Position numbers and translations under genes: made by a program
Shown: positions 5,797 through 8,115 of the stretch, piece by piece
Numbering within the stretch: the stretch's first letter is position 1
Layout of the letters: every line of letters starts with the position of its first letter
Assembly: GCF_003143995.1 (NCBI RefSeq)
Contig: NZ_QFWG01000001.1
Location: forward strand, 310,001-374,000
DNA from: Pseudoglutamicibacter cumminsii
Lineage (GTDB): Bacteria; Actinomycetota; Actinomycetes; Actinomycetales; Micrococcaceae
Length of the DNA: 64,000 nt
Direction: 5' to 3'
Notes under the pieces: model-generated
The model's database searches: none
What the model saw: the letters and a program-made list of their open reading frames with translations, nothing else
Told to the model about the DNA's origin: nothing

Positions 5797-6690
5797 TTAC
5801 CAGCCGCGCTCTTCGAGGCGGTGGTGCACTGGGATCTCATCGACGTTGAGGCCAACCATGGCTTCGCCGAGACCACGGGATACGTCAGCGATCACCTTCG
5901 GGTCGTTGTAGTTGGCGGTCGCCTTGACCACTGCAGCTGCGCGGGCTTCTGGGTTGCCGGACTTGAAGATACCGGAGCCCACGAACACGCCGTCTGCGCC
6001 GAGCTGCATCATCATAGCTGCATCTGCTGGGGTTGCGATGCCGCCAGCCGTCAACAGCGGGACCGGGAGCTTGCCTTCGCGCGCGACCTCGACGACGAGG
6101 TCGTATGGCGCCTGCAGTTCCTTCGCAGCAACGTACAGTTCGTCTTCAGCCATCGAGGTGAGGCGGTTGATTTCGGCGCGGATCTTGCGCATGTGGCCGG
6201 TAGCGTTCGAAACGTCGCCGGTTCCGGCTTCGCCCTTGGAGCGAATCATCGCTGCACCTTCGTTGATGCGACGCAGCGCCTCGCCAAGGTTTGTCGCGCC
6301 GCAAACGAATGGGGCCTTGAAAGCAAATTTGTCCACGTGGTTCTCGTAGTCAGCTGGGGAAAGAACTTCGGATTCATCGATGAAGTCGATGTCTAGGGCT
6401 TCCAGCACCTGGGCCTCAACGAAGTGTCCGATGCGGACCTTCGCCATGACCGGGATCGATACTGCTTCCTGGATACCAACGATCATGTCGGGATCCGATG
6501 CGCGAGACACACCGCCCTGGGCACGAATATCGGCAGGCACGCGTTCGAGAGCCATAACGGCCTTAGCGCCTGCGGCTTCAGCGATGCGAGCCTGTTCAGG
6601 GGTTACGACGTCCATGATGACGCCGCCAGTCAGATGGTCAGCAAGCCCACGACGGACACGAGCTGCCTGCTGGTTCGGTTGTGCGTTCAC
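5797..6690 (-). CDS. pdxS: Pyridoxal 5'-phosphate synthase lyase subunit PdxS
   Basis: PdxS builds PLP from ribose 5-phosphate, glyceraldehyde 3-phosphate and ammonia. The 297-residue product carries the (beta/alpha)8 fold signatures GGVIMDVV, the Schiff-base lysine in MAKVRIGHF (about K84), [30 protein letters not shown] and the phosphate loop [13 protein letters not shown]. It is close to full length for the family. The glutaminase partner pdxT, which normally follows pdxS, is not adjacent and not in the window. The 172-base gap behind pgsA contains a palindrome that may be an operator. Confidence 0.98.
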
Positions 6691-6800
6691 GCGAACAATA
6701 CCTTTCGGTCATCGAAATAGAAGATCAGGGAAAACTTGGGCTCATAGAGGCCAAACCCTTGTTCATGTTATCGGTCATTGCGGCCTACGGTGTGCACGGC

Positions 6801-6834
6801 TGTCATATCGAGCGAAGAACAGCGTCATATGACG
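6801..6834. promoter_or_regulatory. Palindrome and half-repeat upstream of pdxS
   Basis: The perfect 12-bp palindrome CGTCATATGACG (6823-6834) is preceded by a second copy of its half, GTCATAT, at 6802-6808. The pair lies between the pgsA stop and pdxS, about 110-145 bases before the pdxS start. PdxR/MocR-type regulators of pdxS bind repeated sites of this size, but no regulator gene is nearby and the assignment is a guess. Confidence 0.25.
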
Positions 6835-6862
6835 TCCGAGATTATGGATTGTCAGCCATGAA

Positions 6863-7534
6863 TCACCGGCGCGTCTGTGCCGGTTCATGGCCGGCGCGGG
6901 CCTGGGAAACCACTTTGGTGATGCGTTGCCCGATCGTCACCACAGAGCCGACGCACACGGCGACGACTCCGCCGAACCACCACCACGAGTTCAGGCCCAA
7001 ACCAGTGAAACCGGTCAGTATCAGCACGACGACCAATCGTTCCGAGCGTTCGACAAAACCCACCGAGGCATCGAAACCCAGCGCCTCGGCTTTAGCCCGC
7101 ACATACGAAACCAGCCCACCGGCAGCCATGAGGGCCAGCGCGGCTGTACCGAACATCGGGCGCCCGCCGCCGGTGAACCACCAGAACGCGAGCGTACCGA
7201 AAATCGCGAAATCAACCAGCCGATCCAGGGACGAATCGAGGAAGTTACCCAGGGCACGGTCTGCCGACGAGCGGGCTCGACCGTGCCCTGCTTCAGCTTG
7301 TTGGTCGAGGTAGCGAGCAAGCTGGCCATCGATCATGTCGGAAAAGATGAACAGCGTGATCGCGACCGTGCCCCAAAACAGCTGACCCCAGCTGTACAGA
7401 GCGACCGCGGAAACAGCGGCGCCGACCGAACCTAGTACCGTGACCAGGTTCGGTGTTGCGCCCGCGCGTGCCAGAGTACGCACGAGCGGGCGAAACAACG
7501 CCGTGAAAAATCCGCGGGCATACCGATCAAGCAT
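6863..7534 (-). CDS. pgsA: CDP-alcohol phosphatidyltransferase (phosphatidylinositol-phosphate synthase type)
   Basis: A 223-residue integral membrane enzyme that moves a phosphatidyl group from CDP-diacylglycerol to an alcohol. Its position after thrS and a HIT gene matches actinobacterial PgsA1, which makes phosphatidylinositol phosphate. The signature Asp residues are present: D66xxD69G70xxAR74 and G96xxxD100xxxD104. The spacing between AR and the second Gly is 21 residues instead of the usual 8-9, because of a polar stretch (QQAEAGHGRARSSADR). Several hydrophobic helices flank it. The stop codon of the HIT gene lies two bases before its start. Confidence 0.9.
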   Translation of the reverse strand: MLDRYARGFFTALFRPLVRTLARAGATPNLVTVLGSVGAAVSAVALYSWGQLFWGTVAITLFIFSDMIDGQLARYLDQQAEAGHGRARSSADRALGNFLDSSLDRLVDFAIFGTLAFWWFTGGGRPMFGTAALALMAAGGLVSYVRAKAEALGFDASVGFVERSERLVVVLILTGFTGLGLNSWWWFGGVVAVCVGSVVTIGQRITKVVSQARAGHEPAQTRR

Positions 7535-7536
7535 CG

Positions 7537-8115
7537 CTAGTTGACCTCGTCCCAGCCCTGCTTCATGAGACGGAGCGTGTCTCCGAGAACCACCGGGATC
7601 GCTTTGGACTCAGCGATGATCGGGAAAAAGTTGGTGTCGCCGTTCCACCGCGGGATCACATGCTGATGCAAGTGAGCCGCGATGCCAGCGCCACCAGCCT
7701 GACCCTGATTCATCCCGAGGTTGAAGCCATCGGGTTTCGAGACGTGGGCGGCAACCCGCATCGCTTTCTGTGCGAGCGCACCCATCTCAGCTGTCTCTTC
7801 CGGCGTGATGTCGGTGTACATCGGCACGTGACGGTACGGGATGACCATCATGTGCCCCGGGTTGTACGGGTACAGGTTGAGGTTCACGAAGCAATGCTCG
7901 CCGCGGTAGACGATGAGCGCTTCCTCGTCGCTACGCTGCGGTCCAGAGCAGAACGGGCACGTGTGCTCGTCCTTGACTTGGTCCTGCCCCTTCTCGACGT
8001 AGGCCATCCGGTATGGGGTCCATAGACGGCCTAGTCGATCAGGTGCTGAAGCGAGCTCGAAGTCGTCGGTGACCTCGGCGTCGTGATCCTGTTGAGGCTG
8101 TTCAGGCTCAGGCAT
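7537..8115 (-). CDS. HIT-domain nucleotide hydrolase or phosphorylase
   Basis: A 192-residue histidine-triad protein. The catalytic HLHQHV triad is at about residues 148-153, and a CPFC pair at about 53-56 suggests a bound zinc. Actinobacterial homologues in this position (thrS-HIT-pgsA) include Ap4A phosphorylases, so a dinucleoside polyphosphate substrate is plausible, but the substrate cannot be read from sequence. The gene overlaps the thrS end by 8 bases and ends 2 bases before pgsA, indicating a translationally coupled operon. Confidence 0.93.

Follow-up and report, generated by a model that had tools for sequence, protein, structure and literature searches.

A lengthened signature spacer in the phosphatidylinositol-phosphate synthase of Pseudoglutamicibacter cumminsii and related Micrococcaceae

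The closest described relatives of the enzyme considered here are the phosphatidylinositol-phosphate synthase (PIPS) of Renibacterium salmoninarum, an organism that we take to belong to the same bacterial family as our own, and PgsA1 of Mycobacterium tuberculosis. CDP sits between TM2 and TM3 in such enzymes, and inositol phosphate between TM4, 5 and 6, where two arginines hold it (available portions of PMC4634129). To crystallize RsPIPS, six interface residues were mutated, two of them (L75 and F77) in the TM2-TM3 loop; the construct was less active, but its authors state in the same portions that this was not primarily due to the fusion or to the interface mutations, which suggests that the loop tolerates some change. 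For PgsA1, the accessible text of PMC6506517 describes a backbone contact of T82, in a flexible loop, to the nucleotide, a critical R94, and an R137K variant with activity comparable to wild type. The signature as given in that text leaves the spacing from AR to G open, and in the accessible parts of the open-access literature on the CDP-alcohol phosphotransferase signature or TM2-TM3 loop and on Micrococcaceae PIPS, nothing was found on spacer length.

The protein compared with these enzymes is encoded in the window, by which we mean the whole 64,000-nucleotide stretch of Pseudoglutamicibacter cumminsii DNA that was analysed. It is 45–48% identical to the R. salmoninarum PIPS (5d91, 5d92) and has the same signature and inositol-phosphate arginines, but the R. 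salmoninarum spacer is 8 residues long and the aligner leaves 13 window residues unpaired there. PgsA1 (6h53, 6h59, 6h5a) has the same fold and substrate residues, but is only 31–33% identical and also has a spacer of 8. A long spacer, of 18 residues, is shared by the PIPS of the sister genus g11 (L005, L031–L033), the closest clade (support 100/100); these differ from the window protein in being three residues shorter in the spacer, in retaining the Trp before the second signature glycine (G2), and in lacking a 12-bp inverted repeat. The lengthening is real but modest, lineage-specific variation in an otherwise ordinary enzyme, and not a new kind of enzyme. We consider it likely that the gene product is an active PIPS, specific for inositol phosphate, and that its cytosolic hairpin, here lengthened, tolerates differences in length.

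Gene identity, signature and predicted structure

The open reading frame begins with ATG, has no internal stops and is intact (Table 1). Its product scores 191 bits against the NCBIfam equivalog for PIPS (NF045883, curated cut-off 170), matches PF01066, and stays below the cut-off of the archaetidylinositol phosphate synthase model (121 against 180). Because NF045883 is passed and the archaetidylinositol model is not, the protein is a PIPS of the PgsA1 type. PgsA proper, the PGP synthase, is encoded by a different gene in all four genomes of the genus (TIGR00560), and PIPS (PgsA1 type) is a better name than PgsA for the present gene.

The cluster lies entirely on the minus strand, in the order thrS, HIT-domain protein, PIPS, pdxS; we take the first gene to be thrS from recognition of its sequence, with no profile. 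Within the available stretch, pdxS is present in 30 of 49 family loci, and in the window it comes after PIPS (5797–7534). Acyltransferase and mannosyltransferase genes come after PIPS in mycobacteria; the window has no gene of either kind between PIPS and pdxS. A plasmid search with the window protein returned three uninformative records, 30–40% identical.

Table 1. Features of the PIPS locus, in window coordinates
Feature	Position	Strand	Basis
PIPS (phosphatidylinositol-phosphate synthase, PgsA1 type), 223 aa	6863..7534	-	NF045883, PF01066, model alignment to 5d91
HIT-domain protein (ATP adenylyltransferase-like), upstream neighbour, same orientation	7537..8115	-	PF01230; NF052622 below its cut-off
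pdxS, pyridoxal 5'-phosphate synthase lyase subunit, downstream neighbour	5797..6690	-	NF003215, TIGR00343
CDP-alcohol phosphotransferase signature, D66 to D104, four Asp kept	7223..7339	-	Sequence, alignment
21-residue spacer, residues 75-95, between R74 and G96 (usual 8 + 13)	7250..7312	-	Sequence, family comparison
TM2 helix, residues 52-81, 7 residues beyond R74	7292..7381	-	AlphaFold2 model
TM3 helix, residues 90-121, begins 6 residues ahead of G96	7172..7267	-	AlphaFold2 model
Perfect 12-bp inverted repeat in 3' part of spacer, arms 7250-7261 and 7279-7290, 17 nt apart	7250..7290	.	Repeat scan

The window protein contains the PIPS signature D1xxD2G1xxAR...G2xxxD3xxxD4 (D66, D69, G70, A73, R74, G96, D100, D104). 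It reads D66-MI-D69-G70-QLAR74, then 21 residues, YLDQQAEAGHGRARSSADRAL (75–95), then G96-NFL-D100-SSL-D104, so that the excess over the usual spacer of 8 is 13 residues (39 nt). The original prediction had placed about 13 extra residues before G96 and had all four catalytic aspartates kept, and both points are borne out by the translated reading frame and the alignment. A strict pattern with 8–9 residues from AR to G, as stated in the original prediction and in the PROSITE form of the signature, fails on this protein with its 21. The Trp before G2, near-invariant elsewhere, is Leu (residue 95, 7250–7252) in all four members of the genus. Met72, two residues before the signature Arg, is Leu in the genus and likewise in the four g11 genes.

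The structure was predicted with a single run of AlphaFold2, on an alignment of 43 sequences (the window protein and named loci) in which no other row had a long spacer. Mean pLDDT is 94.5, with values of 95, 90 and 92 for residues 71–80, 81–90 and 91–100, and the predicted model has the fold of solved PIP synthases (Z 26.7 and rmsd 1.7 over 200 residues against 5d91). The turn between TM2 and TM3 is 8 residues long in this model. In a control with a spacer of 8, from Arthrobacter (L052), TM2 ends at residue 75, TM3 begins at G83, the equivalent glycine, and the turn is 7 residues; pLDDT there is 80 and 79 for residues 71–80 and 81–90. The prediction thus suggests that each helix gains about six residues, or about two helical turns, so that the TM2-TM3 hairpin is raised while its turn keeps a normal size. 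The insert had originally been assigned to the loop joining two helices at the cytosolic active site. Its location at the cytosolic TM2-TM3 junction beside the active site agrees with the model and with the available portions of PMC6506517 and PMC4634129, but the extra residues are predicted to extend both helices and not the turn.

The residues that contact substrates argue for an unchanged acceptor. By alignment, D68, D71, D89 and D93 of PgsA1 correspond to D66, D69, D100 and D104, and R94, R152, R155 and R195 to R105, R163, R166 and R204, all kept, so that the pocket arginines (R94, R155, R195) are retained. Conservative replacements are seen at K135 (R146) and R137 (K148). D31 corresponds to N29, which the P(D/N)xx(T/S) motif permits (PMC4634129, PMC6506517), and T32 is kept. 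T82 falls in an alignment gap relative to the window protein, which makes its placement arbitrary; given the backbone contact of T82 in PgsA1 (PMC6506517, in the part available), an effect of the insert on the nucleotide site is possible by analogy.

Inositol-phosphate synthase (PF01658) was found in all four genus genomes, in 50 of the 59 genomes of the set of relatives that contains them, and in the Corynebacterium glutamicum control. A second model for this enzyme, PF07994, matched none of the four genus genomes, and the C. glutamicum control was silent as well; we read this silence as a search miss, and loss of the synthase is ruled out by the PF01658 matches. Elsewhere in the family, 8 of 32 genera lack a match to the window PIPS, yet six genomes without such a match (G008, G018, G019, G023, G024, G025) keep PF01658. 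G030 has a PIPS match and no PF01658 match.

That the insert switches the acceptor, for example to glycerol phosphate, is very improbable in our judgement. The insert does adjoin the active site and the Trp before G2 has become Leu, but the inositol-phosphate residues are kept or conservatively replaced, inositol-phosphate synthase is present, PGP synthase has its own gene, and the acceptor is bound between TM4, 5 and 6, away from the TM2-TM3 loop (PMC4634129, available portions). The same residues, together with PF01658 and a separate PGP synthase in four of four genomes, speak against the altered substrate choice that the original prediction had envisaged. Most likely, judging from sequence, the substrate remains inositol phosphate.

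Distribution and history of the long spacer

The family sample comprised 395 genomes, of which 281, in 24 of 32 genera, had a PIPS match. Spacers were read in the PIPS genes of 55 of these 281 genomes, with all 24 PIPS-bearing genera represented. Sixteen of the 55 genes, in 6 of the 24 genera, have long spacers (11, 12, 17, 18 or 21 residues), and the remaining genes have 8. A spacer of 21 occurs in the window genus (g1; 4/4 genes read), 18 in g11 (4/4), 17 in g20 (4/4), 12 in g27 (2/2) and g30 (1/1), and 11 in g7 (1/5, L017). Among the genes read, a spacer of exactly 21 is confined to the window genus. An insert common in the family would, by the original account, have counted against it; lengthened spacers are indeed not unique to the genus, which weakens that account, but among the genes read the exact length is.

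Beyond the family sample, the usual spacing of 8–9 residues assumed at the outset holds. Among the matches listed (at least 80 named loci, 37 from Micrococcaceae and 35 from Streptomycetaceae), the spacer is 8 in 80 of 80, and it is also 8 in the best-scoring 29 further loci of the class. In other families of the order and class, 60 of 60 genomes, picked by hand for spread over families, have a spacer of 8 or 9 and none exceeds 9. One of the other-family genes (L191) has a spacer of 8 read by eye and carries AS in place of AR. In L015 of the family sample (g5, spacer 8), a perfect 10-bp inverted repeat lies across the AR-spacer junction.

Within the genus, the window gene (L001) was compared with those of the other three genomes (L002–L004), whose proteins are 95, 83 and 83% identical to it. 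The 21-residue spacer has the same frame and length in all four. A frameshift pair that restores normal spacing, raised with the original prediction as something that could undo it, is therefore ruled out: the difference is 39 nt, and frame and length agree across four genomes, two of which encode proteins with only 83% identity to that of the window. In the L001–L003 comparison, 13 of 21 third codon positions of the insert have changed against 10 of 42 others (Fisher p = 0.005), a bias expected of a translated and constrained sequence. The constraint looks weak, since residue changes affect 9 of 21 positions in the insert against 195 positions with 25 changes in the rest (Fisher p = 0.0016), and dN/dS is about 0.29 and 0.07, respectively (NG86). 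In the close pair L001–L002 the corresponding values, 2/21 and 7/195, do not differ significantly (p = 0.21). That all four genomes retain the length of 21 although its residues evolve faster than those elsewhere in the protein goes beyond chance, and the shared length could reflect more than weak constraint.

A tree of 47 rows was built from four genes of the neighbourhood after deletion of the spacer. It places g1 and g11 together (100/100) with short-spacer relatives immediately outside (97/99), groups g20, g27 and g30 (100/98) away from g1 and g11, and leaves L017 of g7 alone. Parsimony on this tree, in which some terminal branches are long and some deep forks lack resolution, gives at least three changes between long and short spacers and five for exact length. 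More than one origin of lengthening is thereby suggested, the exact number of origins being less certain. At the 3' end, the spacers of g1 can be aligned with those of g11, and the common ancestor of the two genera therefore probably already had a long spacer.

Recurrent lengthening could also mean that the hairpin is a docking or regulatory element, selected several times, that binds a cytosolic partner (e.g. a PIP phosphatase or the inositol-phosphate synthase) or closes over CDP-diacylglycerol. The three or more long/short changes within one family, the absence of spacers above 9 in the 60 other-family genomes, the constant length in g1, g11 and g20 (each 4/4 genes read) and the confidence of the predicted helices are consistent with this, but sequence, length and net charge (−2 to +2) vary among lineages and the insert evolves faster than the rest of the protein, and we regard such a role as fairly unlikely. 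To a broader proposal we give little credence, namely that the Micrococcaceae TM2-TM3 hairpin is an evolvable cytosolic handle, lengthened independently several times, that either offers a docking site to a partner, PIP phosphatase or inositol-phosphate synthase, or controls access to the CDP-diacylglycerol site. If this were true, the CDP-alcohol phosphotransferase signature would be usable as a regulatory insertion point.

The inverted repeat inside the insert

The perfect inverted repeat in the spacer (Table 1) occurs in the window species and in its nearest relative, L002, where the arms are identical and the 17 nt between them show three changes. It is absent from L003, L004 and the four g11 genes. 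Counting this one, the window as a whole holds 11 perfect inverted repeats (arms of at least 11, loops of 3–25); five block shuffles yielded 0 or 1 apiece. As RNA, the 41-nt repeat folds at −30 kcal/mol (z −5.8); a wider segment of 91 nt gives a z of only −1.8, with 7 of 200 shuffles as good. The organism's own genome has one full copy and, beyond its own reverse, five matches of 14–19 nt. Near matches to the arm number 14 in the window against 9.7 expected, an unclear enrichment, since as many occur in 8 of 100 shuffles. At 7364–7373, about 100 nt from the repeat, ten bases of this arm are found again, in codons of the conserved WGTV, possibly by chance.

The span of the repeat, 41 nt, is close to the 39-nt excess, and its arms are perfect in both the window species and L002, as might be expected if the insert had come from a palindromic mobile or repeat element that entered in frame. 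Elements of the Rickettsia palindromic type, which insert in frame, are expected in several genomic copies, but a second full copy is absent from the genome, and the window is not clearly enriched in near matches to the arm. L003 and L004 have the same 21 residues without the repeat, as the g11 genes have 18 without it, and from the 3' alignment of the spacers of the two genera, noted above, the length probably predates the palindrome. With a single full genome copy and the repeat absent from L003 and L004, we reject the idea that the insert began as a palindromic element and give it almost no weight.

Homogenization of the arms by template switching is a simpler account. In yeast, template switching homogenizes repeat arms and changes coding sequence (available part of PMC8604942), and by analogy the inverted repeat is probably mutational and may have arisen in this way. 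Such homogenization explains the letters of the insert and not its length. The segment 7250–7290 is a candidate for such template-switch homogenization of arms within a bacterial gene.

The hairpin in the mRNA also bears on whether the ribosome might skip 13 codons by translational bypass, leaving a mature enzyme of normal spacing. Ribosomal bypass elements combine matching take-off and landing codons with a hairpin, and the Gly codons 83 and 96 do lie 13 codons apart. But these codons are unequal in the window species (GGG/GGT) and in L002 (GGG/GGC), the genomes in which they are equal (L003, L004) have no hairpin, and the third-position bias of changes in the insert is typical of translated sequence. 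We consequently reject bypass, whose probability we regard as practically negligible.

Proposed explanation and significance

The explanation that we prefer, an active PIPS with a lengthened and length-tolerant hairpin, can be set out as follows. In an ancestor of the window genus and the sister genus g11, the TM2-TM3 connection would have been lengthened, to the present 18–21 residues. About two more helical turns per helix would raise a normal-sized turn further from the membrane, so that it stands in the cytosol over the nucleotide cleft, while leaving the metal-binding aspartates and the inositol-phosphate pocket in place. If the hairpin tolerates changes of length and sequence, then the parallel lengthening in the family would be mostly drift under weak constraint, and any effect on CDP-diacylglycerol binding would be small at most. 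We infer that the enzyme works like its counterparts in other Actinomycetes, with CDP-diacylglycerol and inositol phosphate as the substrates that it joins, and that the insert would have no strong functional effect.

Strict signature patterns would miss long-spacer PIPS, which is relevant for annotation; the enzyme class has been discussed as a source of drug targets (PMC6506517, accessible text). The long-spacer enzymes show where the normally constant spacing of the signature can stretch with the catalytic residues retained, and they are natural variants for probing the role of the loop over the nucleotide in CDP-alcohol phosphotransferases.
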